A DNA stretch of 46,184 nt from Tateyamaria pelophila. GTDB lineage: Bacteria; Pseudomonadota; Alphaproteobacteria; Rhodobacterales; Rhodobacteraceae. Below the pieces are notes generated by a model. That model was not told the DNA's origin and ran no database searches. It saw nothing but the letters and a program-made list of their open reading frames with translations. Shown piece after piece: positions 27,099 to 42,510 of the stretch. Numbering within the stretch: position 1 is the stretch's first letter; each line of letters starts with the position of its first letter. Location of the stretch: assembly GCF_019966495.1 (NCBI RefSeq), contig NZ_JAIMIA010000030.1:1-46184 (forward strand), read 5' to 3'. Made by a program: the position numbers and the translations under genes.

Positions 27099-27593
27099 CT
27101 AGTGGTGGTGGCCGTCCTCGTCCAGCGCGCCGTGAATGGCAAATTGATCCAATCCGGCGTCGCGGGGCTCCACGATCCGATAGCTTTCCTTGACGCCAGC
27201 GTCGGTCAATTCGCGCGATACCAGCAATAGCGTATTGGGATGCTGGCCGTCACAAATGTCGACCATATGCATCAACTCATCGCGGGCCACAGCTTTCGCG
27301 TCCTGGATCGAAGGCGCGCCGTAGACATCGACGAAATGTTGGGCAAGCGCGTTGGTCAGTGCGTCCAACTCCGACGGCTCGACTTGTGTCACAGCCACCA
27401 CGGACACGCGGCCAAAGGTCTCGATCCCCAACCAGCCGTTGGAGAAGGCTTGCCGGGCCTTGCCCGTCAGATCCGCCTCTGACCAGTTCGAGAATTCAAA
27501 CCCGCCCGACAGGCACCACTCCCCGGTCCGGGCCGGCGAATGAAAAATGTTCATGTCGCTTTCGTCAAAATGGATTGCGCGCGCCAGCATCAT
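27099..27593 (-). CDS. DUF6505-family protein
   Basis: 164 residues, cytoplasmic, ending in an acidic and His-rich tail (Glu-Asp-Gly-His-His-His). I recall this as a family found next to Mrp and the biotin-ligase-like protein in Rhodobacterales; the function is unknown. The GGAGGG site precedes a double ATG; I use the first. Four bases after the stop of the biotin-ligase-like gene, so fourth in the operon DUF6494, Mrp, ligase-like, DUF6505. The terminal histidines could bind metal. Confidence 0.75.
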   Translation of the reverse strand: MMLARAIHFDESDMNIFHSPARTGEWCLSGGFEFSNWSEADLTGKARQAFSNGWLGIETFGRVSVVAVTQVEPSELDALTNALAQHFVDVYGAPSIQDAKAVARDELMHMVDICDGQHPNTLLLVSRELTDAGVKESYRIVEPRDAGLDQFAIHGALDEDGHHH

Positions 27594-27597
27594 GTTT

Positions 27598-28299
27598 TCA
27601 GCCCTCCAGCATTTTGGTGAGTGGGATCAGATGCGTTACGGCTCCGTCCCGCAGCAGCATCCCGAAATTTTCGTCTATGCCCAGAAATGTCCCGCGGGTT
27701 CCGCGTATCTCGATCTCTTCCCCGATGCCGTGCGCCAGTCCACGCCATTCTTTGTGCAATGGTGCGGCGCCGTCTTCGAGCCAGGTGTTTAAACCGACCA
27801 ATGTGTGTTTCACCCAGGCCTCGAGCAGCGCGACCGCATCCACATCAGCGCAGCCTTCGGCATAGAGCGCGGTTTGATCAGGCATTTCACCGGTGTCGTC
27901 GGATGCAGGCCAGAGCGGCACTTCCAGCCCGATCACCAGCCAGTTCGGCTCTTCCTTCGGGTCGGATCCGGATGCGGCGGCCCGCAAATGCCCGCAGGAG
28001 GCTCCATTGACCCGGATGCCTCCGGCCCAGTCCAGATGTACCGCAACCTCTGGCGGTGCGAGCGCGCCAAGGGCGTTTTGAAACCCGACCCCGCACAGCG
28101 GCAGCATCGTCATCGAATCCTCAAGGATCACGTCCGGCGCAAACACTATTGCAGCCCGCAGCGTATCCGCACCCAGATTGTGGACAACAAGCCCCGCATC
28201 GCAACCGCGCACCGCCTCCACGCAGGCTTTGTCAAACGGGTCGATCCGGCCGTCAACCGCCAGCCCGTCAAAGAGGGGAGGGAAGGTCGGTTTCGTCAT
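27598..28299 (-). CDS. Biotin/lipoate ligase-fold protein with DUF4444 C-terminus
   Basis: 233 residues. The central part follows the biotin-protein-ligase fold: HLDWAGGIRVNGASCGHL stands where BirA has the KWPNDIxxNxKKxxGIL segment, followed by NWLVIGLEVPLW for the WVVIGIGINV strand. The C-terminal 50 residues (EIRGTRGTFLGIDENFGMLL) resemble the SH3-like cap (DUF4444). The GRGRRGR loop that holds biotinyl-AMP is missing, and the catalytic lysine of KWPND is replaced, so ligase activity is doubtful. Its ATG overlaps the Mrp stop as ATGA. Position between Mrp and DUF6505 beside the formate dehydrogenase cluster suggests a part in Fe-S or cofactor delivery, as inference. Confidence 0.8.
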   Translation of the reverse strand: MTKPTFPPLFDGLAVDGRIDPFDKACVEAVRGCDAGLVVHNLGADTLRAAIVFAPDVILEDSMTMLPLCGVGFQNALGALAPPEVAVHLDWAGGIRVNGASCGHLRAAASGSDPKEEPNWLVIGLEVPLWPASDDTGEMPDQTALYAEGCADVDAVALLEAWVKHTLVGLNTWLEDGAAPLHKEWRGLAHGIGEEIEIRGTRGTFLGIDENFGMLLRDGAVTHLIPLTKMLEG

Positions 28300-29354
28300 C
28301 CTCCTTTTCCGACCTTGATCAATGCTCTGGCCACGTCCCGAAACGCCTGCGCCTGCGGCGAGCCCGGTTTCGACACCACGATCGGCGCGCCTGCGTCGGC
28401 TGCCACGCGGATATCCAGATGCAGCGGGATTTCAGCCAAGAGCGGCACGCCCAGTTTTTCCGCCTCTGCCTTGACGCCGCCATGGCCAAAGAGGTGTTCT
28501 TCGTGCCCGCAATTGGAGCAGATATGCGTGCTCATATTCTCGATCATGCCAATGACGGGCGTACCCATCTGGTTGAACATGTCGATGCCTTTGCGCGCAT
28601 CCAGCAAGGCAACATCCTGTGGCGTCGAAACAATGACTGCCCCATCCAGATGCGCCTTTTGCGCCAATGTCATCTGCACGTCACCCGTGCCGGGCGGCAG
28701 ATCGACGATCAGCACGTCCAGCGCGCCCCACTGCACCTGCGTCAGCATCTGTTGCAGCGCACCCATCAGCATCGGCCCGCGCCAGACCACCGCTTGATCC
28801 TCATTGGTCATCAAACCGATCGACATCATCGTCACCCCGTAGTTGCGCAGGGGCAGGATGATCTTGCCATCGGGGCTTTGCGGGCGGCCCGACACACCCA
28901 GCATGCGCGGCTGAGACGGTCCGTAGACATCCGCATCCAGCATGCCCACACGGCGTCCTTCGGCCGCCAGCGCACAGGCCAGATTGGCTGCCACAGTGGA
29001 TTTACCCACACCGCCCTTGCCCGACGCCACTGCGATGATGCGGTCGATGCCGGGCACTTTTTCCGGGCCTTTGGCTTCCGCGGCCCGGCCCAGCTTGAGA
29101 TCCGGCGGCGGCGCCTTTTGGCTGTGCGCCGTCATGATGATCGTTACCGACACAGCCCCCAAAGCGGTCAGTTTTTCCTCTGCCTCCGCTTTGGCCGCCA
29201 TGAACGGATCGGGTTGATCCACCTCCATCACAAAGCGCACCGCGCCGTCTTCCACGTTCAGCGCACGGACCAATCCAGCCTCGACCAGATCAACGCCGGA
29301 GGGCGCTTTGACATCTCTCAGACAGGCGAGAACGGCGTCTCGGGAAACAGACAC
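28296..29354 (-). CDS. mrp: Mrp/NBP35-family Fe-S carrier ATPase
   Basis: 352 residues. An N-terminal MIP18/DUF59-like domain (1-90) precedes a deviant Walker A P-loop, SGKGGVGKSTVAANLA, near residue 115, then LDADVYGPSQPRMLG and the LIVDLPPGTGD Walker B region. A CxxC, CSNCGHEEHLFG, near 275 is the pair that bridges an Fe-S cluster between two subunits in ApbC/NBP35. These proteins carry [4Fe-4S] clusters to target enzymes. The GTG start directly follows the TAG of the DUF6494 gene. Next to the poly-ferredoxin and formate dehydrogenase genes, both cluster-rich, it may supply them. Confidence 0.93.
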   Translation of the reverse strand: MSVSRDAVLACLRDVKAPSGVDLVEAGLVRALNVEDGAVRFVMEVDQPDPFMAAKAEAEEKLTALGAVSVTIIMTAHSQKAPPPDLKLGRAAEAKGPEKVPGIDRIIAVASGKGGVGKSTVAANLACALAAEGRRVGMLDADVYGPSQPRMLGVSGRPQSPDGKIILPLRNYGVTMMSIGLMTNEDQAVVWRGPMLMGALQQMLTQVQWGALDVLIVDLPPGTGDVQMTLAQKAHLDGAVIVSTPQDVALLDARKGIDMFNQMGTPVIGMIENMSTHICSNCGHEEHLFGHGGVKAEAEKLGVPLLAEIPLHLDIRVAADAGAPIVVSKPGSPQAQAFRDVARALIKVGKGG

Positions 29355-29546
29355 CTATGCGCCTTCGATCTTGCCGGTCACGACATGTTCCAGCGCGATC
29401 CCGTCGATGGTCAGCACCACTTTGGCCTCATAGCTTTTTCCGGCTGTGTCGCCCGCGTTGCGCATCGCGTCTTCGATGGCCTGCTGGGAGGTCACGCCCA
29501 CCTGCTTTAGAAATTTGCGCATCGACATGTTGAAATCTTCGCTCAT
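29355..29546 (-). CDS. DUF6494-family small protein
   Basis: 63 residues, ATG at 29546 with GGGAA upstream. Helical N-terminus (MSMRKFLKQVGVTSQQAIEDAMRNA) and a two-strand C-terminal part ending VVTGKIEGA. I recognise it as the small DUF6494 protein that precedes Mrp in Rhodobacterales. No catalytic residue visible. Its TAG touches the GTG of mrp, so the two are translationally coupled and this is the first gene of the four-gene operon. Divergent from the TupA-cytochrome gene, 94 bases away. Confidence 0.75.
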   Translation of the reverse strand: MSEDFNMSMRKFLKQVGVTSQQAIEDAMRNAGDTAGKSYEAKVVLTIDGIALEHVVTGKIEGA

Positions 29547-29640
29547 GGTGACGTTTCCCGGTTTGCTGAAATGTTGACGTCGGCACCCTAGCGCCCCTAG
29601 GCTGACGTGCAACCTGACAAACGAGGCTGAAGGGTTCGTA

Positions 29641-30366
29641 ATGCTGAGAATATTGGTTGTCCTCGCGTTGTTGCTGGCCAAACCTGTCGTGGCACAGGAC
29701 AGGGCATTTGTGTTGCAGGCTCCCGCTACACTGGTTGAAACTGGATTTCTGAAGCATCTTCTGCCCCGGTTCTCGCTCAAGACCGGTATTCGGATTTCCG
29801 TGTCTGCGCAAACCGGCGATGCGAGGCTTGGGGACGATGGCACGCCTGTGTTCCAGCAAGGCGATACCGTATGGCGCTTTGCCAGTTCCGGCGACGCGGA
29901 CGCGAATGTGTTCGAAGCGTGGCTGTTGTCGGACGTCGGCAAGCGCACGATCGAGGCCTATGCGCCGAACGGCAACGCGCTGTTCAGTTCCGATGTGACC
30001 GAAACCGTTGTGATCGCCACGGTCGCGTCGAGCGGCGATCTGGCGCTTGGCGAGGAAACCAGTCTCACGCAATGCGGACGCTGTCATGTGGTCAATGAAA
30101 CCAACCGCATGAACGCCATCGGTTCGACTCCTTCTTTCGCTCTGATGCGAACATTTCCCGACTGGCAGGCACGGTTCGAGACGTTTTTCATGCTCAGGCC
30201 CCACGCGGCCTTTACGCAGGTTATCGACGTCACCGAACCCTTTCCCGAACACCTCCCGTCTCCCATCGTCCCAATCGAAGTCACGGTGGAGGAGGTCGAG
30301 GCGATCACCGCCTATGTCGGATCGATTGCGCCAGCGAACCTGGGATCGCCAATCCAAATTCAGTGA
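29641..30366 (+). CDS. TupA-like remnant domain fused to cytochrome c
   Basis: 241 residues with a signal peptide (1-18). Residues 23-65 align by eye with the N-terminus of TupA encoded in this window (TupA 22-64): both run strand, SG or TG, FLKHLLPRF or LSDVLLPVI, KTGI or DTGL, then TGDARLG or TGQALRLG. Residues 88-116 (ANVFEAWLLSDVGKRTIEAY, NGNALF) match TupA's C-terminal helix EDWLTSPKAEALINGY and its SLF end. The roughly 140 residues in between are missing, so only the two edges of one lobe remain. A c-type heme motif CGRCH follows at 145-149; Met ligand candidates are Met157, Met169 or Met184. Secreted to the periplasm. Stop overlaps the convergent poly-ferredoxin gene by 7 bases. Likely an electron acceptor or assembly part of the formate dehydrogenase system. 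Confidence 0.85.
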   Translation: MLRILVVLALLLAKPVVAQDRAFVLQAPATLVETGFLKHLLPRFSLKTGIRISVSAQTGDARLGDDGTPVFQQGDTVWRFASSGDADANVFEAWLLSDVGKRTIEAYAPNGNALFSSDVTETVVIATVASSGDLALGEETSLTQCGRCHVVNETNRMNAIGSTPSFALMRTFPDWQARFETFFMLRPHAAFTQVIDVTEPFPEHLPSPIVPIEVTVEEVEAITAYVGSIAPANLGSPIQIQ

Positions 30367-32306
30367 TCCTTGCGTTTGCTGAAATAGTCGTCACTGGTGC
30401 GCACCCGAGGCCGCTCACCACCCTGGAACGGGTTGTCCGTTGAGTGAAACTGCGCCTGAATGCGGCAGTTTTCGCACATCTGGATCATTTTGGCCGCGTC
30501 GGACGTGGCGAACATCGCGTGTTTTCCAGCCAGTTTTTCGGTGATCTTTGCGATGGTGGACTTCGATCCAAACAAGCTACCGCATTCGATACAGGCAAAG
30601 GGCTCTTCTTCATACAGAACACGCTGGGTGAACGCGGCGCCGGTCAGATCCATCTGCGGTTTCAACGTGATCGCCTGTTCCGGGCAAATGTTGCTGCACA
30701 ACCCGCATTGCAGGCAAGCATCTTCCTGAAACCGAAGTTGCGGCAGATCCGAATTGTCGCCCAATGCGCCGGACGGGCAAAGAGAGACGCAGGACAGGCA
30801 CAAAGTGCAGGCATCGGTATCAACCAAAACGGCACCGTATGGCGCGCCTGTCGGCAAATCCGTGATGGACAATTCGGGTTGCAGAGCCTTTGCGGCCAGT
30901 CGGGCCACCTGCCGTCGCGATCCCATGGGCAGGATCGGGGCGCAGTTCAGCGGCGTCACGACAAGTTCCGACAGCGCTTCGCACAACGCGTCCGGGTCGG
31001 CCACGTGCAACAGTCGCACCACATCAGCGCCTGCCAACGCCCGCGCCAGTTCTGCTTGCCCCTCCAGTACCTCAAGTTCGGTCTTGGGTGACATCAGCAC
31101 ATTGACATGCTCAAACCCGCAGGCAAGCGCGGCGACCATTTCAGCATGACCAAAGCCCGAAAGAGCATCGACTTCCAGCGGGATGACATGCCCGGGCAAT
31201 CCCCGCCCGAACCGGGCGCCAAGTGAAATCATTTCCAGCCCGTAACCGGCGTCATGCACCAGCAAGTGCGCGTTCGTCCCGTCGGCATTGCGATATGTGG
31301 TTGCAAGAGTCGTCAACCTTCGAAAGATCGCATCGACAGGCGGCGCGTCATAGCTGATCGCCCCTGACGGGCAAACCGCGGAACACGATCCGCAACCGGC
31401 GCAGATCATCGGATCCACCGCCACATGTTCGCCCGCCGATGAAATCGCCCCGGTTGGGCACACATTCAGACAGTTCGAGCAAGCTGGCTGTTCCGCGCGA
31501 CTGTGGGCGCAGAGCGACTCCTCCAGCCGGACATAAAGCGGTTTTTCGAATGTGCCGACCATGTGCGATGCGTCGAACACTGCCTTGGCGATGGAGGGCG
31601 GGTGAGTAGGGTCCGCGCGCAGATATCCTTCGCGTTTGTCCGGGGCAGGGACCAAGGGAGTGCGCCCACTCAGATCCAGAATGATATCGCAGTTGGATAC
31701 AGCACCATCCTGAGGCGCGCCAAGTGTGAATGCCCCGCGTCCTCCCGGCACGATCTGTTGCAACCCGTTGAACTTGACGGTGAAGTCGCCGAGCGCGCCA
31801 TTGACCGTACGGATCGTTCCAAGGACGCAATCGAACCGGCGGTCCGCCGGGATCAGGTCTGCATCCTCCACCAGAACAGTGACCGCCAGAACGCCACATA
31901 GGTCAGCCGCGGCCTGAATCGCGGCGACGCCCCCGATAATCAGACATGTCCCCTCGGACACCACATCAACTGCTTTTCCAAGCGGCAGGGACAGCGCCGC
32001 TTCGGCCGCCAGAGCACTCATTTTCGCGGTCGGATTGCCTTCGCCCCATCCAGCGCGGTCGCGCAGGTCGACAAAGCCGGGGGCGTCCGCGCCGATCTCG
32101 TCTGCCAGATCTTCAAATATTTGTCGTTCTTGCTGACAGGCGACGATTGCGTCGCCTTGCGCCAATTCCTTGGCAGCAGCGCCGATTTGCACGGTGCATA
32201 AGCTACTGTAAACCTTGGAACATTCCAGTCCGCTGGCATTTGATATGGCATCTGTGTCCACGTTCTGACTGCCCGCACAGTCGCACACTATCAGCTTTTT
32301 TGCCAT
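30360..32306 (-). CDS. Poly-[4Fe-4S] ferredoxin-type protein linked to formate dehydrogenase
   Basis: 648 residues, cytoplasmic. Cysteine motifs in order: an N-terminal Cys-rich segment (8, 10, 29, 37, 57) like HdrA-type proteins; CxxCxxxCP at 276-283; CxxCxxCxxxCP at 302-312, 500-510 and 531-541; and two CxxC pairs at 572-575 and 611-614 resembling a rubredoxin or zinc-ribbon knuckle. That gives three full [4Fe-4S] sites plus one with three cysteines (Cys266 may complete it). The ATG has a strong GGGGGG site. In roseobacters this protein goes with formate dehydrogenase; it probably feeds or takes electrons in the cytoplasm. Divergent from the DUF3305 gene with a 318-base regulatory gap. Confidence 0.85.
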   Translation of the reverse strand: MAKKLIVCDCAGSQNVDTDAISNASGLECSKVYSSLCTVQIGAAAKELAQGDAIVACQQERQIFEDLADEIGADAPGFVDLRDRAGWGEGNPTAKMSALAAEAALSLPLGKAVDVVSEGTCLIIGGVAAIQAAADLCGVLAVTVLVEDADLIPADRRFDCVLGTIRTVNGALGDFTVKFNGLQQIVPGGRGAFTLGAPQDGAVSNCDIILDLSGRTPLVPAPDKREGYLRADPTHPPSIAKAVFDASHMVGTFEKPLYVRLEESLCAHSRAEQPACSNCLNVCPTGAISSAGEHVAVDPMICAGCGSCSAVCPSGAISYDAPPVDAIFRRLTTLATTYRNADGTNAHLLVHDAGYGLEMISLGARFGRGLPGHVIPLEVDALSGFGHAEMVAALACGFEHVNVLMSPKTELEVLEGQAELARALAGADVVRLLHVADPDALCEALSELVVTPLNCAPILPMGSRRQVARLAAKALQPELSITDLPTGAPYGAVLVDTDACTLCLSCVSLCPSGALGDNSDLPQLRFQEDACLQCGLCSNICPEQAITLKPQMDLTGAAFTQRVLYEEEPFACIECGSLFGSKSTIAKITEKLAGKHAMFATSDAAKMIQMCENCRIQAQFHSTDNPFQGGERPRVRTSDDYFSKRKDH

Positions 32307-32409
32307 TTTCGCCCCCCTTCACCGGCCAGAAATGGCGGTGCGCCCGAAGGCTAGACGGGTTTGACGCCGGTGGTAAACCACATTTATTTCACCAAGGAGA
32401 CCGGGGCGC

Positions 32410-32428
32410 ATTTTTGCATGGCAAAAAT
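32410..32428. promoter_or_regulatory. Palindrome, likely regulator site
   Basis: ATTTTTGC-ATG-GCAAAAAT is a perfect inverted repeat of 8 bp arms with a 3-base spacer. A second half site with the same ATTTTTGCAT core occurs at 32526-32535. Candidate binding site for a regulator of the formate dehydrogenase genes (identity unknown). Confidence 0.45.
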
Positions 32429-32530
32429 CAAGAATACTTTCTCGTTTTTTAAAAGATCCAAATGGCGTAACGGCCTAAAGTGCGTTGACCGAATGACACA
32501 TTTGTGGCACCCACCGGCCAGATCAATTTT

Positions 32531-32548
32531 TGCATACCAGTGCATACC
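32531..32548. repeat. TGCATACC direct repeat
   Basis: TGCATACC occurs at 32531-32538 and again at 32541-32548, 10 bp apart, one helical turn. Tandem sites like this are typical for activators binding upstream of a promoter. About 77 bases before the DUF3305 start. Confidence 0.4.
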
Positions 32549-32624
32549 GCACAGAAAGTTCTTTGAGAACGTCGATGAATCAGACCATAATCGCGATAGC
32601 CAAAGATATGAAACCGGGAACACG

Positions 32625-33185
32625 TTGAGTATCCAAGACAAGAAATCCGCTTCAATCCCGTTGGGAATTGTGATCCGCAGAGTGCCTGGCGTGACGCGTT
32701 GGGCCACTTATGTATGGAAGGCAATTGCCGTTCTTCCCGGCGCGGGGTCAGCGGATTGGAAAGAAATGCGGCGCGATGGCGATGCGGTCGAGTACCATGC
32801 CGCGACACTGCCACTGGAACTGTTTCGCACCGATACGGAAGCTTATTTGCACGGGCTGTCTGCCAAGGTGCCCTCCATTTATGTGGTAATGCGCCCATCC
32901 GAGAGCGATGAGCCGCTGGATATGGTTTTGGTCACCGCCTCGCCCTATGAAGCACAGGACTACACCGATACCGGGGAGGAACTGGTCGAGAAAGTTCCGA
33001 TGCCCGATGGTCTGATCGCCTGGATCCGCGAGTTCGTCGAATTGCATCACGAGGATGAGGTGTTCGTCAAACGCCGCCGCGATAAGGCCCGCGTGGATCG
33101 CAAGGAAGACGGGATCGGCGATGCACGGATTCGTCAGGTGGCCGATGTCTACCGCGCCCCCGGTGCAAAAGAGACGGTCCATTGA
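32625..33185 (+). CDS. DUF3305 protein, formate dehydrogenase cluster
   Basis: 186 residues from TTG 32625, with GGGAA upstream. The frame is open 88 codons further back, but the conserved part starts at IPLGIVIRRVPGVTRW. Then WKAIAVLPGAG, ATLPLELFRTDTEAYLHGL and SIYVVMRP follow the DUF3305 pattern. Cytoplasmic, no catalytic motif. The family is known only from formate dehydrogenase clusters and the function is not known; maturation or assembly is the usual guess. Its TGA overlaps the DUF3306 start. Confidence 0.85.
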   Translation: MSIQDKKSASIPLGIVIRRVPGVTRWATYVWKAIAVLPGAGSADWKEMRRDGDAVEYHAATLPLELFRTDTEAYLHGLSAKVPSIYVVMRPSESDEPLDMVLVTASPYEAQDYTDTGEELVEKVPMPDGLIAWIREFVELHHEDEVFVKRRRDKARVDRKEDGIGDARIRQVADVYRAPGAKETVH

Positions 33186-33775
33186 CCGCCCGCGAAGATT
33201 TCTGGGCCCGTCGCAGGGCAGGGGTCGCCGCGGAGGCGGAGGCCGAACGGGCCGCTCAAGAGGCGGAGAAGATACACAAAGACCATGCGGTCTTTGAGGG
33301 AATGGACGAGGCGGAGATGTTGGCCGCCCTTGATCTGCCGGATCCCGATACGCTGAAGCAAGGCGATGACTTCTCTGTCTTCATGGCCAAGGCCGTACCG
33401 GATCAGCTTCGCCGCCGGGCGTTGCGGATGCTGTGGCGATCAAATCCGGTTTTGGCCAATGTGGATATGCTGGTCGATTACGGTGACGATTTCACCGACG
33501 CGGCGATGGCAGTCGAGAATATCCAGACCGCCTATCAGGTCGGCAAAGGCATGATGAAACATGTCGAGGAAATGGCCCGTCAGGCCGAAGAACGTGCCAA
33601 TCCACCGGCACCTGATGACGCGATCGAAGACACGGACACAGACAGCAATGTCGCCGAAGCGCCGGAGCGGGATCCGCAGCCAGAGGTCGTCAAGACCGTC
33701 GAGGATCCAGAAGGCGAAACATATGCCTCAGTCGTGCCGCGCCGCATGAAATTCAGCATCGAGGAACCCGCGTGA
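33182..33775 (+). CDS. DUF3306 protein, formate dehydrogenase cluster
   Basis: 197 residues, TTG start overlapping the previous stop as TTGA. The N-terminal 45 residues are a charged helix (DFWARRRAGVAAEAEAERAA), followed by the family core DFSVFMAKAVPDQLRRRALR, MLWRSNPVLANVDMLVDYGDD and FTDAA, then a low-complexity acidic, Pro-rich tail. No enzyme motif. Partner of DUF3305 in nearly every cluster that I recall; a scaffolding role during Fdh assembly is plausible. GTGA overlap with the TorD-like chaperone gene downstream. Confidence 0.85.
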   Translation: MTAREDFWARRRAGVAAEAEAERAAQEAEKIHKDHAVFEGMDEAEMLAALDLPDPDTLKQGDDFSVFMAKAVPDQLRRRALRMLWRSNPVLANVDMLVDYGDDFTDAAMAVENIQTAYQVGKGMMKHVEEMARQAEERANPPAPDDAIEDTDTDSNVAEAPERDPQPEVVKTVEDPEGETYASVVPRRMKFSIEEPA

Positions 33776-34377
33776 ACGCCGCCGAAGATATGACCATTGC
33801 CACTGAAGACCGACTGCGTGCGGACCTCTATAACTTTCTGGGGCTGATGTTGTCCGGTCCGCCGGATCAGATGCTGCTGGACCAATGTGCACATCTGACA
33901 GGGGATGACAGCGAGATGGGCCAGGCGATCGCAGGTCTGGCACGCGTGGCAAAGGCCAGCAAGCCGCGCAGCGTCGAAAGCGAGTTTAACGCGCTTTTCA
34001 TCGGATTGGGTCGGGGCGAGTTGCTGCCTTATGCCAGCTATTACCTGACCGGTTTTCTCAATGAAAAACCGTTGGCGGCGTTGCGATCGGATATGGCGGC
34101 ACGCGCGATGACCCGCGCCCCGAACGTATACGAACCCGAAGACAACATCGCATCGCTCATGGAAATGATGGCGGGCATGATTGTCGGCCGCTTTGGCAAG
34201 CCCGCAACGCTGGACGACCAGAAGATGTTTTTCAACAAGCACATCGCGCCATGGGCCGGACATTTCTTTTCCGATCTTGAGGCCGCCAAGAACTCGATCC
34301 TTTACGCATCATTGGGCGCAGTGGGGCGTGCATTCATGAATATTGAACGCGAAGCTTTTCGAATGACCGCCCGCTAG
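33772..34377 (+). CDS. TorD/DmsD-type chaperone
   Basis: 201 residues, all-helical, GTG start at 33772 overlapping the DUF3306 stop. The family signature is ESEFNALFIGLGRGELLPYA followed by SYYLTG, i.e. E(Y/F)xxLF plus a downstream P-Y-x-S-x-Y. Redox-enzyme maturation chaperones of this kind bind the Tat signal of a molybdo- or tungstoenzyme and hold it until the cofactor is inserted. FdhA, three genes downstream, has such a signal. The nearby 62-residue Tat peptide may also be its client. Confidence 0.9.
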   Translation: MNAAEDMTIATEDRLRADLYNFLGLMLSGPPDQMLLDQCAHLTGDDSEMGQAIAGLARVAKASKPRSVESEFNALFIGLGRGELLPYASYYLTGFLNEKPLAALRSDMAARAMTRAPNVYEPEDNIASLMEMMAGMIVGRFGKPATLDDQKMFFNKHIAPWAGHFFSDLEAAKNSILYASLGAVGRAFMNIEREAFRMTAR

Positions 34378-34622: not shown

Positions 34623-34735
34623 GACGCTTTTCTATCGACCCATGGACGACTGGTTGCGTGACGCCCGACTGTCCTTGGTAGCAAAAAAGCCAAGCGAGCA
34701 GGGGGTTGTCCCGAGCGAGCAAGGGAGGAACGAAG

Positions 34736-37705
34736 ATGCTGAAGAAAAAAACCAACGGGGTTGCGCGACGCTCCCAGCGGACTGGCATATTATCTGACAT
34801 CGCAGAGAAATCCGTAGACCGCCGTGCATTCCTGCGGGGCTCAGGCCTGGCGATTGGAGGGCTTGCTGCGATTTCGGCGACGGGTGGCACTGTCACTCAG
34901 GCCTCCGCAGCGACCGCCGCCAGCGGCGCCGTGGAAACCATCAAGTCCGTCTGCACCCACTGTTCGGTCGGCTGTACCGTTGTGGCCGAAGTCAGCAATG
35001 GCGTTTGGACAGGGCAGGAACCCGGATGGGACAGCCCCTTTAACCTGGGAGCGCATTGCGCCAAAGGGGCCGCCGTCCGCGAACATGCCCATGGCGAGCG
35101 CCGTCTCAAATACCCGATGAAAAAAGAGGGTGGAGAGTGGAAACGCATCAGCTGGGAGCAAGCCATCAACGAGATCGGCGACGGCATGATGAAAATCCGC
35201 GACGAAAGCGGACCGGATTCCGTCTACTGGCTGGGCTCGGCCAAGCATAACAACGAACAGGCCTACCTGTTCCGCAAGTTCGCCGCCTATTGGGGCACGA
35301 ACAACGTGGATCACCAGGCGCGGATCTGTCACTCGACCACCGTTGCGGGCGTTGCGAACACATGGGGCTACGGCGCCATGACCAACAGCTACAATGACAT
35401 CCACAATTCCAAGGCGATCTTTATCATCGGTGGCAACCCGGCCGAAGCGCACCCCGTTTCGCTGCTGCACCTTCTGAAAGCCAAGGAGCAGAACAACGCG
35501 CCTGTCATCGTTTGCGATCCCCGCTTTACCCGCACGGCGGCCCATGCGGACGAATATGTGCGCTTCCGGCCCGGTTCGGACGTGGCGCTGGTTTGGGGGA
35601 TCCTCTACCACATCTTCGACAATGGCTGGGAGGACCGAGAGTTCATCCGCACCCGTGTCTGGGGCATGGACCAGATCAAGGAAGAAGTCGCCCGGTGGAC
35701 GCCCGAAGAGGTTGAGCGCGTCACAGGCGCCTCGCCCGTCCAGCTCAAGCGCGTGGCGCGGACGCTGGCCAACAACCGTCCCGGCACCGTGATCTGGTGC
35801 ATGGGTGGCACACAGCACACCAACGGCAACAACAATACGCGCGCGTATTGCATCTTGCAGCTGGCCCTTGGCAACATGGGCACGGCAGGCGGCGGCACCA
35901 ATATCTTCCGCGGCCACGACAACGTGCAGGGCGCCACGGACCTTGGCGTTCTGGCCGATACACTGCCCGGCTATTACGGCCTGTCCGCAGGCAGCTGGGC
36001 ACACTGGGCCCGTGTCTGGGACGAGGATCTGGATTGGCTCAAGGGCCGGTTCTCGGATGCCACATATGGCGACACCTCGATGATGAACCTCAACGGGATC
36101 ACCGTCAGCCGCTGGATTGACGGGGTGCTAGAGGACAAGGAAAACATCGACCAGCCGGACAACACCCGCGCGATGGTTCTTTGGGGCCACGCGCCCAACT
36201 CCCAGACCCGTCAGAAGGAAATGAAGACGGCGATGGAAAAGCTGGACATGTTGGTGGTGGTTGATCCCTTCCCAACGGTCTCGGCGATTTTGCATGATCG
36301 TCAGGACGGCGTGTATCTGTTGCCCGCCACCACGCAATACGAAACACGCGGATCTGTCACCGCGTCGAACCGGTCGCTGCAATGGCGCGATCAGGTCATT
36401 GACCCGCTGTTCGAAAGCCTGCCGGATCACGTCATCATGGCGAAATTTGCCAAGAAATTCGGCTTTGAGGATCGTCTGTTCCGCAACATTTCGATGGACG
36501 GAGAAGACGAGCCGAACATCGAAGACATCACCCGCGAATTCAACCGCGGCATGTGGACCATTGGCTATACCGGCCAGTCGCCTGAGCGCCTCAAGATGCA
36601 CATGGCCAACCAGCATACGTTTGACCGCACCACGCTGCGCGCCGTCGGTGGCCCCGCAGATGGGGATTTCTATGGTCTGCCATGGCCCAGCTGGGGCACC
36701 CCCGAGATGAATCACCCGGGCACGGCGAACCTTTATGACATGTCGCTGCCCGTGGCCGAGGGGGGGCTGACCTTCCGCGCCCGCTTTGGTGTCGAACGGG
36801 ACGGCGAAAACCTCTTGGCGGATGGTGTCTATTCCGTCGGGTCGGAAATTCAGGATGGCTATCCCGAATTTACGATGCAGATGCTGATCGATCTGGGCTG
36901 GGACGGTGACCTGACCCCGCGCGAACGTGCAGAGATCGAATTCGTCTCCGGCTTCCGCGACACGCGGCCCGGCACCGCGGAAGTGGGCGAGCAATCGCAG
37001 CAAGGCCCCTATCCATCGGATTGGACCGACAAGATCGGCGGCGTCAACTGGAAGACCGACCTCTCGGGCGGCATCCAGCGGGTTGCGATCAAACATGGCT
37101 GTGCCCCCTTCGGCAATGCCAAGGCCCGCGCCGTTGTCTGGACATTCCCGGACCCGGTACCGATCCACCGCGAGCCGCTTTATACCAATCGGCGCGATCT
37201 GGTGGCCGATTATGGCACCTATGACGACCGCAAGTTCTGGCGCGTCCCGACAATGTATAAGTCCATTCAGGAAAACGACTTTTCCAAGGATTATCCAATG
37301 ATCCTGACCTCTGGTCGTTTGGTCGAATACGAGGGTGGCGGCGATGAAACCCGGTCAAACCCATGGCTGGCCGAGTTGCAGCAAGACATGTTCATCGAGA
37401 TCAACACACGCGATGCCAACAATCTGGGCGTGCGTGACGGTGCACAGGTTTGGGTGGAAGGCCCCGAAGGCGGCAAGGTCAAGGTTATGGCCACGGTCAC
37501 CGAACGGGTCGGCGAAGGCGTTGTCTTTATGCCATTCCACTTTGGCGGGCATCTGGAGGGCGAAGATCTGCGCCACAAATATCCCGAGGGCGCAGACCCT
37601 TACGTGTTGGGCGAAAGCACGAACACGGCACAGACCTATGGCTACGATTCAGTGACCCAGATGCAAGAGACCAAGGCCACTCTCTGCAAAATCTGGACAG
37701 CATAA
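34736..37705 (+). CDS. fdhA: Formate dehydrogenase catalytic subunit, Mo/W-bis-MGD
   Basis: 989 residues; ATG 34736 with GGGAGGAA upstream (a start at 34706 would add 10 residues). Tat signal SVDRRAFLRGSG at 26-37. [4Fe-4S] ligands Cys73, Cys76, Cys80 and Cys108; Lys110 bridges to the cofactor. The metal ligand is Cys198 in RICHST, so this is the cysteine form; His199 is the essential histidine next to it. The protein oxidises formate to CO2 in the periplasm, passing electrons to the Fe-S beta subunit and then to the cytochrome b gamma subunit and quinones. The tungstate importer downstream and the absence of selenocysteine suggest a tungsten enzyme, but molybdenum cannot be excluded from sequence. 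Confidence 0.95.
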   Translation: MLKKKTNGVARRSQRTGILSDIAEKSVDRRAFLRGSGLAIGGLAAISATGGTVTQASAATAASGAVETIKSVCTHCSVGCTVVAEVSNGVWTGQEPGWDSPFNLGAHCAKGAAVREHAHGERRLKYPMKKEGGEWKRISWEQAINEIGDGMMKIRDESGPDSVYWLGSAKHNNEQAYLFRKFAAYWGTNNVDHQARICHSTTVAGVANTWGYGAMTNSYNDIHNSKAIFIIGGNPAEAHPVSLLHLLKAKEQNNAPVIVCDPRFTRTAAHADEYVRFRPGSDVALVWGILYHIFDNGWEDREFIRTRVWGMDQIKEEVARWTPEEVERVTGASPVQLKRVARTLANNRPGTVIWCMGGTQHTNGNNNTRAYCILQLALGNMGTAGGGTNIFRGHDNVQGATDLGVLADTLPGYYGLSAGSWAHWARVWDEDLDWLKGRFSDATYGDTSMMNLNGITVSRWIDGVLEDKENIDQPDNTRAMVLWGHAPNSQTRQKEMKTAMEKLDMLVVVDPFPTVSAILHDRQDGVYLLPATTQYETRGSVTASNRSLQWRDQVIDPLFESLPDHVIMAKFAKKFGFEDRLFRNISMDGEDEPNIEDITREFNRGMWTIGYTGQSPERLKMHMANQHTFDRTTLRAVGGPADGDFYGLPWPSWGTPEMNHPGTANLYDMSLPVAEGGLTFRARFGVERDGENLLADGVYSVGSEIQDGYPEFTMQMLIDLGWDGDLTPRERAEIEFVSGFRDTRPGTAEVGEQSQQGPYPSDWTDKIGGVNWKTDLSGGIQRVAIKHGCAPFGNAKARAVVWTFPDPVPIHREPLYTNRRDLVADYGTYDDRKFWRVPTMYKSIQENDFSKDYPMILTSGRLVEYEGGGDETRSNPWLAELQQDMFIEINTRDANNLGVRDGAQVWVEGPEGGKVKVMATVTERVGEGVVFMPFHFGGHLEGEDLRHKYPEGADPYVLGESTNTAQTYGYDSVTQMQETKATLCKIWTA

Positions 37706-37718
37706 GGAGACCTGAGAA

Positions 37719-38312
37719 ATGGCAAGAGCGAAGTTTCTCGTAGACGCCGAACGCTGCATTGAGTGCAACGCCTGCGTGACAGCCTGTAAGAACGAGCACG
37801 AAGTGCCGTGGGGCATCAACCGCCGCAAAGTCGTCACGATCAATGACGGCTCGCCCGGCGAACGGTCGATCTCGGTGGCGTGCATGCACTGTTCGGATGC
37901 GCCCTGCATGGCGGTCTGCCCAACGGACTGTTTTTATCAAAATGAGGAAGGGGTGGTGCTCCACTCCAAAGATCTCTGTATTGGCTGTGGTTACTGTTTT
38001 TATGCGTGTCCCTTCGGCGCGCCACAGTTCCCGCAGGCCGGCAACTTTGGATCACGCGGCAAGATGGACAAATGCACCTTCTGTGCCGGTGGCCCGGAGG
38101 AAAACCACTCCACAGCCGAGTTTGCCAAATACGGGCGCAACCGGATCGCCGAAGGCAAGCTGCCGATCTGCGCCGAAATGTGCGCAACCAAGGCGCTGCT
38201 TGCCGGTGATGGCGACGTCGTGTCCGGCATCTACCGTGAACGCGTCGTGGCCCGCGGCTTTGGCTCCGGTGCCTGGGGCTGGGGTTCGGCTTACGGCCAG
38301 CAGGGCGGCTAA
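37719..38312 (+). CDS. fdh3B: Formate dehydrogenase Fe-S beta subunit (FDH3 type)
   Basis: 197 residues. Four [4Fe-4S] motifs by cysteine count: 13-16-19-23, 55-58-63-67, 87-90-93-97 and 119-122-151-155. No Tat signal of its own, so it is probably exported with FdhA by hitchhiking. It is shorter than FdnH, with no C-terminal membrane anchor. Passes electrons from FdhA to the cytochrome. Starts 13 bases after fdhA. The TAA stop lies in the loop of a GGGCGG/CCGCCC hairpin (38303-38318), followed by a strong terminator. Confidence 0.93.
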   Translation: MARAKFLVDAERCIECNACVTACKNEHEVPWGINRRKVVTINDGSPGERSISVACMHCSDAPCMAVCPTDCFYQNEEGVVLHSKDLCIGCGYCFYACPFGAPQFPQAGNFGSRGKMDKCTFCAGGPEENHSTAEFAKYGRNRIAEGKLPICAEMCATKALLAGDGDVVSGIYRERVVARGFGSGAWGWGSAYGQQGG

Positions 38313-38397: not shown

Positions 38398-39609
38398 ATG
38401 CTGCGCGCGCTGATCGCTATGTTGCTGACCCTGTCGTTTATCACCGTGGCGCAGGCGCAAGAGGCCGACGCACCGGCCGCTGGGCCTGACCGCTCCGCGA
38501 CCGGCGGGGCACAAACCCTCGAAGACATCATGGCCCGCCAGCGGGGTGAGGCCGTCGACAATGCGTTTCGGTCCGAAGCAATCGGCGACCCGAACAGCGC
38601 GGCGGGCATGGCCAACCAGCTTGGCACTCTGGGCGGCGCGTCCGATCCCGAACTCTGGCGCGAATTGCGCTTTGGATCTGCGGATATCACAACGCAGTAT
38701 AACGGGCCGGCCGCCACGACCTTGGTGCAGGATGGCGGTATGCAATGGTTGCTTTGGCGTCAGGGGCCGCTGGCCACCTATGGCGCCTATCTGCTGGGCG
38801 GCACTATCCTGTTGCTTGCCCTGTTCTACCTCATCCGGGGCCGGATCCGCATCGACGGCCCGAAAACCGGCCGCACGATCGAACGGTTCAAGGCGGTGGA
38901 ACGCTTTGGTCATTGGCTGTTGGCCGGCTCTTTCATCTTGCTTGGGATCACCGGACTCATCACCCTCTTTGGCCGCAAGGTCCTGATCCCCGCCTTCGGG
39001 CACGAGGCATTTTCGACGCTCGCGATCGCGTCGAAATGGGTGCACAACAACGTATCATGGGCGTTTATGCTGGCGTTGGTGATGATCTTTGTAATGTGGG
39101 TCATTCACAACCTGCCGGACCGGACAGACATCAACTGGATCCTCAAGGGCGGCGGTATCTTTACCAAGGGCCACCCGCCGGCCAAGAAGTTCAATGCTGG
39201 TCAAAAGCTGATTTTCTGGTCAGTGATTGTCCTTGGCACGTCAATTTCGATCACCGGACTGGCGCTGCTGTTTCCCTTCGAAATCAACATGTTTGCCGCC
39301 ACTTTTGACAAGCTCAACAGTTTCGGAATCTCCAACGCATTGGGTATGGGTGAGTTGCGCACAACGCTCGCCCCGCATGAAGAGATGCAATACGCCCAAC
39401 TCTGGCATGCCATTGTCAGCTTTGTGCTGATGGCCATCGTTCTGGCACATATCTATATCGGATCGCTCGGGATGGAGGGGGCCTATGACGCAATGGGCTC
39501 TGGCGAAGTTGAGGAACAGTGGGCCCGCGAACACCATTCGCTGTGGGTCGAGGAGGTCAAGGCCAAGGAGAAGAAGGCCGCTTCCGAAAGTGCAACGCCC
39601 GCAGAATAG
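38398..39609 (+). CDS. fdhC: Formate dehydrogenase gamma subunit, cytochrome b
   Basis: 403 residues. Signal peptide (1-20), a 100-residue periplasmic N-terminal region, then membrane helices starting at about 125, 172, 217, 272 and 340. Family b-heme histidines are candidates in RFGHWLL (His172), the WVHNN stretch (His216), and AQLWHAIVSF (C-terminal helix). Takes electrons from the beta subunit and reduces the quinone pool. Larger than FdnI because of the extra periplasmic region, as in other FDH3-type gamma subunits. Directly followed by the WD40-cytochrome gene: its TAG touches the next ATG. Confidence 0.93.
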   Translation: MLRALIAMLLTLSFITVAQAQEADAPAAGPDRSATGGAQTLEDIMARQRGEAVDNAFRSEAIGDPNSAAGMANQLGTLGGASDPELWRELRFGSADITTQYNGPAATTLVQDGGMQWLLWRQGPLATYGAYLLGGTILLLALFYLIRGRIRIDGPKTGRTIERFKAVERFGHWLLAGSFILLGITGLITLFGRKVLIPAFGHEAFSTLAIASKWVHNNVSWAFMLALVMIFVMWVIHNLPDRTDINWILKGGGIFTKGHPPAKKFNAGQKLIFWSVIVLGTSISITGLALLFPFEINMFAATFDKLNSFGISNALGMGELRTTLAPHEEMQYAQLWHAIVSFVLMAIVLAHIYIGSLGMEGAYDAMGSGEVEEQWAREHHSLWVEEVKAKEKKAASESATPAE

Positions 39610-40935
39610 ATGCTGCGGGGGGTTGTCATAGCATCCGTAATGGCGTCGCCGCTGGCGGCGCAGGAATTTTATACCCTCAAGGGACACGGCGGCCCGATCA
39701 TGGATGTCGCGGTGTCCCCGTCAGGTCAGATCGCCACGGCCAGTTTCGACAATACCGTCGGCGTCTGGACACCGGACGGTCCTCTTTGGCTGGAAGGGCA
39801 TCGGGCGGCTGCGACGACAGTCAGCTTCGTGAACGACCGCGCGCTTGCCTCCGGCGGCGATGATTTCAAACTCTGGCTCTGGTCGACGGCCACTGCCGAG
39901 GGACGGCAAGCCGCTGCGCACACGGCCAAGATTGCAGATGTCGTGGTTTCCCCGGATGGGCGGACCATCGCAACCGCCTCATGGGACAGCACCATCGGGC
40001 TGACCCCTGTCAAAGGGCTTGATGGGCCGATACCCACTTGGCAGGTGCGTGACACCGTGCACCTGTCCGGTCATCGCGCCGGGGTGAACGCCATTGCTTT
40101 CACGCAAGACGGTCAAACGCTGTATTCCGCATCCGTGGATGGCACCATCCGATCATGGCAAGTGCACGATCCCAAAGCTGTCTCGACGGTGGTGGTGAAA
40201 CACGGGTTCGGGGTGAACCGGCTGGTCGTCAACGACGCAGAGGGCTGGCTGGCCTATGGCGCGACTGACGGCGGCACCCGGATGATCGATCTGGAAACGG
40301 GACAGAGCCTTGCCGATTTTACCCTTGGGCGCCGCCCGATCCTGTCGATGGCCTATGATCCGGTCGGCAGATCACTGGCGGTAGGGGACGGGCAGGGGTA
40401 CATCATGTTCATTGATACCGACACGCGCCGCATCTCGAATGATTTTCGCGCCTCAAACTCTGGCCCGATCTGGGCGTTGTCGTTTTCCCCAGACGGACAA
40501 AGCATCCATGCAGGCGGGATCGAGGATATCGTTTATTCTTGGCCAGTCGCCGCGACAGGCCAACAAGTTCCGATGAACGGCGGCACACGAACGTTTTTAG
40601 AAGATCCCAAGACCCTGCCCAATGGGGAACGTCAGTTCAAACGCAAATGCTCCATCTGCCACACGTTGACCAAGGGCAGTGCGCGCCGCGCCGGGCCAAG
40701 CCTTTATGGTCTTTTCGGGCGCAAGGCGGGCGCAGTCGCCGATTACACCTATTCGGAGACGCTTGACGGCTCCGACATCATCTGGTCAGCAGAGACGATA
40801 AATGCTTTATTTGATCTGGGACCGGATCACTATATCCCCGGCACCAAGATGCCGATGCAACGGATCGTGAGAAAAAGGGATCGGGACGACCTGATCGATT
40901 ATTTGCGCACCAAAACGGTGCAGGGAGAGAACTGA
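39610..40935 (+). CDS. WD40-repeat protein fused to cytochrome c
   Basis: 441 residues with a signal peptide (1-17). Residues about 20-325 form WD40-type blades: repeated units such as LKGHGGPIMDVAVSP, then SGQIATASFDNTVGVW, and LSGHRAGVNAIAFTQ, then DGQTLYSASVDGTIRSW. The C-terminal 110 residues are a cytochrome c: CSICH heme motif and Met in GTKMPM as likely sixth ligand, with the GPSLYGLFGRKAG segment of class I cytochromes. Periplasmic electron carrier; the propeller may dock on the formate dehydrogenase. ATG directly follows the fdhC stop. Unlike usual WD40 proteins, which are eukaryotic or cytoplasmic, this is secreted. Confidence 0.9.
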   Translation: MLRGVVIASVMASPLAAQEFYTLKGHGGPIMDVAVSPSGQIATASFDNTVGVWTPDGPLWLEGHRAAATTVSFVNDRALASGGDDFKLWLWSTATAEGRQAAAHTAKIADVVVSPDGRTIATASWDSTIGLTPVKGLDGPIPTWQVRDTVHLSGHRAGVNAIAFTQDGQTLYSASVDGTIRSWQVHDPKAVSTVVVKHGFGVNRLVVNDAEGWLAYGATDGGTRMIDLETGQSLADFTLGRRPILSMAYDPVGRSLAVGDGQGYIMFIDTDTRRISNDFRASNSGPIWALSFSPDGQSIHAGGIEDIVYSWPVAATGQQVPMNGGTRTFLEDPKTLPNGERQFKRKCSICHTLTKGSARRAGPSLYGLFGRKAGAVADYTYSETLDGSDIIWSAETINALFDLGPDHYIPGTKMPMQRIVRKRDRDDLIDYLRTKTVQGEN

Positions 40936-41095: not shown

Positions 41096-41800
41096 ATGAA
41101 TGAGATCTGGGCCGGCATGCTCGCGGCGTTCCGGCTGATTGTGACGCTGGACGCCGATCTGGTAGAAATCACGCTGCGCTCGTTGCAGGTCAGCCTGTCG
41201 GCTCTGGTGATTGCGTGCGTCATCGCGCTGCCTTTGGGAACATGGCTGGCCATCCGCCGGTTTCGGTTCCGGCGCGCGACAATTGCCACGCTGAATGCAT
41301 TGATGGGGCTGCCGCCTGTGGTTGTGGGCCTCATCGTCTACCTGCTCTTGTCGCGCTCCGGTCCGTTTGGGGTTCTGGGGCTGCTCTTTACACCCACTGC
41401 GATGATCATCGCCCAGGTGATCATCATCACACCGCTGATCGCATCGCTGACCCATCAAGCCATGCGCGAGCTTTGGGCCGAATATCATGACCTCCTGATT
41501 TCGCTCAACACGACCAGCCGCCAGCGCATCGCCACGTTGATCTGGGACGGGCGGCGCGCCTTGCTGACCGGGGCGCTGGCCGGGTTTGGCCGCGCCATCG
41601 GAGAAGTCGGAGCCATCATGATCGTTGGCGGCAATATCGACCACGCCACGCGCGTGCTGACCACGGCCATTGCGTTGGAAACGGGCAAGGGCGATTTTGC
41701 ACTGGCGCTTGGGCTGGGCTTCGTTTTGATCGCGCTGGCCCTGCTGGTGAACTTTGCCATCCACACCCTGTCGCGCACAGAGCAGGAGGGGACATGGTAG
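41096..41800 (+). CDS. tupB: Tungstate ABC transporter permease
   Basis: 234 residues with five to six membrane helices. The ATPase-docking EAA loop is replaced, as in TupB, by a looser sequence around LISLNTTSRQRIATLIWDGRRALLTG and AGFGRAIGEVGAIMIVGGNI, which is the family hallmark. TupB forms the membrane channel for tungstate with TupC and TupA. The gene overlaps tupC by 7 bases (ATGGTAG). It follows the small peptide gene by 30 bases, so the tup genes probably belong to the fdh operon. Confidence 0.93.
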   Translation: MNEIWAGMLAAFRLIVTLDADLVEITLRSLQVSLSALVIACVIALPLGTWLAIRRFRFRRATIATLNALMGLPPVVVGLIVYLLLSRSGPFGVLGLLFTPTAMIIAQVIIITPLIASLTHQAMRELWAEYHDLLISLNTTSRQRIATLIWDGRRALLTGALAGFGRAIGEVGAIMIVGGNIDHATRVLTTAIALETGKGDFALALGLGFVLIALALLVNFAIHTLSRTEQEGTW

Positions 41801-42510
41801 ACGCCTCAATCCTTGTAGCGTTACGTGATACCTGCGTGAAACGGCGGGGCAAAACCATCCTCGGGCCAGTCAATCTCGACCTCTTGGACGACGGGTTTAC
41901 GATCGTGCTGGGGCCAAACGGAGCGGGCAAAACAACCTTGCTCAAGGTGCTGCACGGGGTCGAGCGGGTGTCATCGGGCACCGTCAAATGGTCTGTTCCG
42001 GACGCGGTCGCGCGGCAAACGCAGGCCTACGTGTTTCAGCGCCCCGTCATGTTGCGGCGCTCGGTACGCCAAAACCTGGCCTACCCACTCAAGTTGGTCG
42101 GGGCATCTGCATCCGACATCGACAATGGCGTGACCTTCTGGGCCGCGCAGATCGGCCTGACCGAGATGCTTGACCGGCCCGCAACACGCTTGTCGGGAGG
42201 AGAAAAACAAAAGCTCGCCCTTGGGCGTGCCTTGATCCGCACCCCACGGGTTCTCTTTCTGGACGAGCCCTGCGCAAATCTCGACGGCCGCTCCACCCGT
42301 GAAATCGAAGGGGTCTTGCAAAGGGCAAACGCGGCGGGCACCCGGATCATCATGACCACTCACAACCTGGGACAGGCGCGGCGTCTTGCCAGCGACATCG
42401 TCTTTCTGTTGAATGGAAGACTCCATGAACAGGGGCGGGCTACAGACGTGTTACGCGCGCCCCAAACGCCTGAGGCCAAGGCCTTTTTCCAAGGAGATAT
42501 TGTCGAATGA
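41794..42510 (+). CDS. tupC: Tungstate ABC transporter ATPase
   Basis: 238 residues. Walker A GPNGAGKTT near 38-46, Q-loop in YVFQRPVML, signature LSGGEKQK, Walker B VLFLDEPCANLD and switch His in MTTHNLGQAR. No C-terminal regulatory domain, the usual state for TupC. Hydrolyses ATP to drive tungstate entry. Its stop overlaps the tupA start as ATGA. Confidence 0.94.
   Translation: MVDASILVALRDTCVKRRGKTILGPVNLDLLDDGFTIVLGPNGAGKTTLLKVLHGVERVSSGTVKWSVPDAVARQTQAYVFQRPVMLRRSVRQNLAYPLKLVGASASDIDNGVTFWAAQIGLTEMLDRPATRLSGGEKQKLALGRALIRTPRVLFLDEPCANLDGRSTREIEGVLQRANAAGTRIIMTTHNLGQARRLASDIVFLLNGRLHEQGRATDVLRAPQTPEAKAFFQGDIVE

Follow-up and report, generated by a model that had tools for sequence, protein, structure and literature searches.

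What can a piece of a tungstate-binding protein be doing on a cytochrome c, next to a formate dehydrogenase? This question is raised by a 46,184-nucleotide contig of Tateyamaria pelophila (NZ_JAIMIA010000030.1), analysed here over its full length and referred to as the window. It carries a gene for a protein in which a domain derived from the tungstate-binding protein TupA is fused to a mono-heme domain like that of cytochromes c. On balance we think it just probable that the fusion is a periplasmic electron-transfer cytochrome of a formate dehydrogenase (FDH) module of the FDH3 type, and that its TupA lobe became a docking domain. A first-pass annotation of the sequence had described the layout of the protein, and the TupA-like part and the CGRCH motif are both present in the 241-residue open reading frame (ORF). 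Its features are listed below; pLDDT is the predicted local distance difference test.

29641..30366, plus strand: fusion gene, TupA-derived lobe and cytochrome c (ORF, 241 aa)
29641..29697, plus strand, preceding 29698: putative Sec signal peptide (residues 1-19), a hydrophobic stretch ending in VVAQ, helical at 2-12 in the model, with the cleavage site placed by eye
29698..30000, plus strand: single-lobe TupA-derived domain (residues 20-120) without lobe B and without oxyanion-ligand motifs, from profile, fold and alignment evidence
30001..30021, plus strand: flexible linker (residues 121-127), pLDDT under 50
30022..30363, plus strand: probable cytochrome c domain, mono-heme and similar to class I (residues 128-241)
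30073..30087, plus strand: heme attachment motif CGRCH (residues 145-149), with C145, R147, C148 and H149 invariant in 51 family members
30202..30204, plus strand: His188, candidate distal heme ligand, invariant in the 51 family members

Taken as a single sequence, the fusion protein resembles TupA weakly. The NCBIfam TupA model (NF041772) gave 14 bits against a cut-off of 400 (E = 0.025) and covered residues 8-61 only, a Pfam search gave no match to the TupA-like part, BLASTP against the window's own TupA reached E = 0.062 over residues 91-115, and Foldseek alone, with the whole protein, found no match under E = 0.001. We built hidden Markov models (HMMs) of the family from 51 members and searched 11,181 six-frame ORFs from the fetched loci, 43 of which encode TupA and 59 a fusion or a cytochrome; the ranks given here are those outside the fusion family. 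Each of the two sequence blocks ranked TupA first when used separately. The N-block (residues 20-60) found its best TupA at 3.7e-8 and seven TupA ORFs before the first unrelated ORF (0.58), its weak point being that no more than 9 of the 43 TupA ORFs were found at E <= 10, and the C-block (residues 66-122) found its best TupA at 2.2e-8 and 31 before the first unrelated ORF (0.79), with 37 of 43 found. Combined, the two blocks reached 2.9e-14 for the best TupA, and 40 of the 43 TupA ORFs were found, all of them ahead of the first unrelated ORF (1.6). Because the family profiles rank TupA first, we regard the resemblance as a settled family relationship.

The first-pass annotation had proposed superposing a predicted structure of residues 20-120 on TupA. 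The model of this segment was a compact domain (pLDDT about 90), and its best match in the PDB, which served as the comparison library, was TupA itself (5my5; 101 residues at 1.6 Å, from a chain of 250 residues). Among PDB sequences ranked by the profile, the first four were 5my5, 3cvg, 3muq and 3lr1, two of which are titled tungstate-binding proteins. According to the part of the crystal structure report consulted (PMC5517513), lobe A of TupA comprises residues 2-76 and 201-251, and lobe B residues 91-200. The fold of the fusion's segment is that of lobe A. The two-block profile test together with the fold match rules out a chance resemblance, and the N-terminal domain thus shares common ancestry with TupA. 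Compared with TupA (PDB 5my5, 3lr1; NF041772), the fusion has the lobe A fold and the sequence edges in common, but it lacks lobe B and the ligand motifs and has a cytochrome attached. Instead of two lobes around a central cleft, about 100 residues were modelled, and the middle of TupA is missing from the profile alignment. The unaligned stretch runs from about residue 79 to 214 in the TupA of locus L082, which is near the first-pass estimate of some 140 lost residues, and from 67 to 229 in that of the window. The same annotation had matched the lobe to the TupA encoded 12 kb away. A TupA-like gene does lie there, at 42507-43304; an origin from this particular gene is not supported, since canonical TupAs score far better (the profile E value for the window TupA was 0.025). 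No full-length TupA-cytochrome intermediate was noticed in genome listings at the level of the class (385 genomes), the order (390) and the phylum (299), in which ORFs with TupA edges only were not each read and of which the order listing came without loci. Two candidates for a TupA-then-cytochrome arrangement, G372 and G105, were rejected, as no cytochrome domain was found there.

Is this lobe still able to bind tungstate? The consulted part of PMC5517513 places the TupA site at TTTS and His59, with R118, T124 and D170 opposite TTTS, so that lobe A holds part of the site. We compared motifs between 34 TupA rows (one row repeated) and 65 fusions. The TTS residues occurred in 33 of the 34 TupA rows and in none of the 65 fusions, and GTGQA in all 34 TupA rows, as against no GTGQ in any fusion. 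The later His, Arg and Thr ligands were each present in 34/34 TupA rows; in the window's TupA they are residues 75, 135 and 141, which fall within 68-228, a stretch without counterpart in the fusion profile. None of the oxyanion ligands TTTS, His59, Arg118, Thr124 and Asp170 was therefore found in the fusion, Asp170 being judged from the lobe limits only. As the first-pass annotation had anticipated, tungstate should not be bound by this lobe in the manner of TupA, and oxyanion binding is unlikely. That the single lobe still weakly binds tungstate or another anion, an idea that draws on the share of the TupA site carried by lobe A, we consider very improbable: lobe B and the motifs are gone, and the substitution R118E alone abolished tungstate binding by TupA, according to the same source (PMC5517513).

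The fusions have conservation of their own in this lobe, at R43 (65/65), K47 (64/65) and L46 (62/65), positions that TupA does not conserve. Over 186 pairs from 36 sequences (at least 65% identity, dS being near saturation), the ratio of nonsynonymous to synonymous substitution rates (dN/dS) had a median of 0.15 in the lobe and of 0.09 in the cytochrome; the calculation was limited to these closer pairs, since saturation of the distant pairs made the all-pairs values unreliable. The lobe is under purifying selection and is maintained, being neither a decaying remnant nor a relic.

The C-terminal part, residues 128-241, was modelled from 65 sequences with a pLDDT of 91.4, and the structures listed for this model were cytochromes c or proteins with such a domain, at modest Z scores (best 6.7). 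The highest identity among them (27-30%) was to SorU (PDB 4pw9, 4pwa), the c-type cytochrome that accepts electrons from a Sinorhizobium sulfite dehydrogenase, a periplasmic molybdoenzyme. SorU would thus be a close parallel, a mono-heme cytochrome c serving a periplasmic molybdoenzyme. The CxxCH signature takes the form CGRCH, with both cysteines and the histidine invariant in the 51 members, and the protein is predicted to be exported and to carry covalently attached heme. In this family set, the only invariant histidines are His149 and His188, and no methionine beyond M1 is invariant or nearly so. The invariant Phe191 occupies the place of a methionine found in the distant, lobe-less G433 protein; as that protein keeps the histidine too, bis-His ligation of the heme through His149 and His188 is a fair guess. 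The combination of a non-Met heme and an invariant His188 would also suit a redox or ligand sensor, in which the lobe reads out the heme and signals the periplasmic redox state or a small molecule. The constant neighbours of the gene, considered for the window genes only, are not signalling genes, and we hold a sensor to be quite improbable.

A candidate partner of this cytochrome is suggested by its genomic company. The order sample comprised 390 genomes (fusion and FDH3 counts were treated as one draw, for which the genome handles agree, the non-matching genomes being listed in part). A match was found in 132 of them, 130 with the fusion and two with the cytochrome alone. FDH3 scored over its cut-off in 129 of the 130 fusion genomes, compared to 201 of the 390 overall. 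The exception is G646 (L204 9113-10135), where a stop breaks up the fusion gene close to the end of its contig and where no FDH3 beta gene was found. Positions of both genes were available for 102 genomes, and in 98 of them the fusion and the FDH3 beta gene lie within 12 kb of each other, at a distance of 7.7-8.4 kb. A further set of 121 relatives, which overlaps with the first, had 36 full fusions, and FDH3 beta was over cut-off in 48, including 35 of these 36; the exception here was G002, in which the gene lies near a contig end. Of the 59 fusion loci that were fetched, including three duplicates of a genome listed under a second name, 54 show FdhA, and the remaining five reach a contig end. 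The Fisher values calculated for these samples treat the genomes as unrelated. The association with FDH3 is constant, and bears out the tie to formate dehydrogenase that the first-pass annotation had drawn from one locus. In the window, the genes around the fusion are as follows.

27099..27593, minus strand: DUF6505 protein (PF20115)
27598..28299, minus strand: biotin/lipoate ligase-like protein with DUF4444 (PF16917, PF14563)
28296..29354, minus strand: Mrp/NBP35-type Fe-S carrier (PF10609)
29355..29561, minus strand: DUF6494 protein (PF20104), divergent, 79 bases from the fusion gene
30360..32306, minus strand: polyferredoxin-like 4Fe-4S protein (FeS4), convergent, sharing 7 bases at its 3' end with the fusion gene
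32361..33185, plus strand: DUF3305 protein, start codon uncertain (Pfam PF11749, ORF residues 101-239)
33182..33775, plus strand: DUF3306 protein (Pfam PF11748)
33772..34377, plus strand: TorD/DmsD-like chaperone (Pfam PF02613; NCBIfam TorD below cut-off)
34706..37705, plus strand: formate dehydrogenase alpha subunit with a twin-arginine-like N-terminus, RRAFLRG (TIGR01591 E = 3.5e-142, below cut-off; sequence)
37719..38312, plus strand: FDH3-type beta subunit (NF038355, 339 bits against a cut-off of 240)
38398..39609, plus strand: FDH gamma subunit, cytochrome b (TIGR01583, 135.5 bits against a cut-off of 115.85)
39610..40935, plus strand: WD40-repeat/cytochrome c protein, the cluster's second soluble cytochrome (WD40 and PF00034 over cut-off; sequence)
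41096..41800, plus strand: TupB-like permease (NF038017 over cut-off; TupB model below cut-off)
41794..42510, plus strand: TupC-like ATPase (PF00005)
42507..43304, plus strand: TupA-like binding protein of full length, carrying the ligand motifs TTS, GTGQA, H, R and T (NF041772 E = 3.6e-54, 184 bits, below the cut-off of 400)

The cluster resembles known FDH3-type clusters in its gene neighbourhood and in a beta subunit over cut-off (NF038355; PMC4464133), and in the consulted part of the latter account DUF3305 and DUF3306 neighbour fdhGHI together with TorD/DmsD; that part mentions neither the fusion's cytochrome nor a TupA fusion. The nearby tup genes are the sole indication that the FDH of this cluster holds tungsten. 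The WD40-cytochrome c protein resembles the fusion in that this cluster encodes it too and that an extra domain is joined to a soluble cytochrome c, but it has a beta-propeller where the fusion has the TupA lobe. Its gene directly follows that of FDH gamma, and 30 of the 36 fusion genomes have a relative, which in G003 is divided between frames.

How might the fusion serve this cluster? Formate would be oxidised by an FDH that is probably periplasmic, given the Tat-like (twin-arginine translocation) start of its alpha subunit, and the secreted mono-heme cytochrome would carry electrons between FDH3 and the periplasmic respiratory chain, by analogy with soluble cytochromes of this kind that serve other periplasmic molybdoenzymes. 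Lobe A, a stable fold stripped of its ligand site, may dock the cytochrome on a partner, most likely the FDH complex: as the lobe should not bind tungstate as TupA does, holding the cytochrome to a partner is its likely use, and such a docking role is plausible. Several observations weigh against this account. With no conserved distal methionine, the heme may be of low potential, or the protein may be no simple carrier, and the placement of the lobe relative to the cytochrome domain was undefined in the model (predicted template modelling score, pTM, 0.47). FDH3 occurs without the fusion in 72 of 201 genomes, and G025 and G032 keep the FDH3 gene order with neither the fusion nor the WD40 cytochrome, so that neither of the two is required for FDH3 to work. 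Among the 102 genomes with known positions of both genes, four (G500, G567, G760 and G750) have the fusion far from the FDH3 beta gene, and in G360 (family f80) the two are on separate contigs. In the four of these five genomes whose loci were read (G500, G567, G760 and G360), the fusion accompanies the Mrp-ligase-DUF6505 block instead. Finally, half of the lobe-less relatives described below (8/16) are not beside FDH3 genes, and their genomes have FDH3 elsewhere.

Company of this kind would suit a maturation or assembly factor, one that helps in the periplasm to build FDH3 or a cytochrome, or to check its quality, together with the DUF6494-Mrp-ligase-DUF6505 block and the 4Fe-4S protein, instead of carrying electrons. 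The fusion gene is flanked by likely accessory or Fe-S genes, the 4Fe-4S gene being present in 58 of the 59 fetched loci, and it is with the Mrp-ligase-DUF6505 block that the displaced fusions stay. Yet a factor of this type has no obvious need for the heme motif, which is conserved in 51/51 members, and Mrp-type and 4Fe-4S proteins of this sort are normally cytoplasmic, hence in another compartment. We therefore rate an assembly role as rather unlikely. The block itself (DUF6505, DUF4444 ligase, Mrp and DUF6494; 27099-29561) stays with the cytochrome gene when FDH3 is elsewhere, with DUF6494 not detected in G760.

The presence of tup genes raises the matter of tungstate import. All 36 fusion genomes of the 121-relative set gave a TupA match (25 in one search and 11 in another, with two frames in G003). 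Neither of the outcomes that the first-pass annotation had named as refuting, a fold unrelated to TupA or homologues in genomes that lack formate dehydrogenase or tup genes, was observed. The TupA gene was within the fetched stretch in 21 of the 59 fusion loci, in 20 of these on the DUF6505 side and about 3-6 kb from the fusion. In G226 (L180 12633-14032) tupC and tupB lie beside the fusion without tupA, the only TupA found being about 2.6 Mb away on the same contig, and in G855 (L195 9665-12340) tupBCA comes immediately after a lobe-less cytochrome gene, DUF3305/3306 and the 4Fe-4S gene being close by. These arrangements would fit a link between FDH3 and tungstate import, in which the lobe docks on TupB as lobe A of TupA does and the heme redox state set by FDH3 tunes uptake. 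On the other side, R43, L46 and K47 are not conserved in TupA, and so do not form an inherited TupB interface; in G009 and G017, TupA is on another contig than the fusion. Moreover, among 39 TupA genomes in one search, nine had no FDH3 over cut-off, and eight of these nine also lacked the fusion (the ninth being G002, with its gene beside the contig end). The fusion thus follows FDH3, not tungstate import, and we judge the import link to be improbable. Its stricter form, the lobe acting as an adaptor on TupB in place of TupA, with the heme gating tungstate uptake to the demand of the tungsten enzyme, appears slightly less probable still. The oxoanion sensing or chaperoning raised by the first-pass annotation was not supported, as the ligand motifs are lost and the fusion tracks FDH3 rather than tup; in addition, molybdoenzymes exported by the Tat route receive their tungsten or molybdenum cofactor while still in the cytoplasm. 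The first-pass observation was confirmed, and its interpretation partly supported. Within the window TupA we noted TTSFHNSGL where more distant TupAs have TTSTQNSGL, and it seems to represent a divergent TupA subfamily. Both cytochromes are missing from the FDH3 clusters of three genomes, G025, G032 and G057, and in G057 (L187) the stretch read contains tupBC without tupA.

Some relatives carry the cytochrome without the lobe. Sixteen such genomes were examined, 13 of them outside the window's family. FDH3-cluster genes lie beside the lobe-less gene in eight (G168, G375, G453, G179, G259, G451, G073 and G855). That they always do so was rejected, as the tested cluster genes were absent around the gene in G151, G256, G305, G433, G023, G555, G668 and G1045, all eight of which have FDH3 beta elsewhere in the genome. 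In G168 the lobe-less gene occupies the place of the fusion, with DUF6494 on one side and the 4Fe-4S gene on the other. In a tree built from 81 cytochrome domains (111 columns; weak, and rooted for drawing only), G168 groups within the fusions, its branch being starred (98/86), and has probably lost the lobe; G023, G555 and G668 perhaps also fall within the fusions. The view that lobe-less forms are simply ancestral is partly rejected by this nesting. The labels on the tree need three changes, for instance a single gain followed by two losses; tentatively, the lobe was probably gained once by an FDH3 cytochrome and then lost a few times.

We found no published description of a TupA lobe-cytochrome c fusion in the open-access literature, the part of the literature that was covered (subscription papers were not); as far as found, the pieces are known and the combination is new. 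Nature would here have taken a binding protein of two lobes, kept one of them as a stable fold without its ligand site, and put it to new use on an electron carrier. The fusion also hints that periplasmic formate oxidation in marine bacteria involves an electron route, or a step of assembly, that has yet to be studied. The fusion is present in a third of the order sample (130/390), yet the five plasmid records that include it mostly call it 'hypothetical protein' (four records), and once 'c-type cytochrome'. Named relatives with the gene include Sulfitobacter, Tateyamaria, Litoreibacter, Roseibium and others. Full fusions outside the window's family occur in G438 and G360 (family f80) and in Roseibium aggregatum (L052), which we take to belong to another family. 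In Sulfitobacter sp. S190 and Sagittula sp. MA-2 (L205, L206), plasmids carry FDH3-cluster genes together with the fusion.
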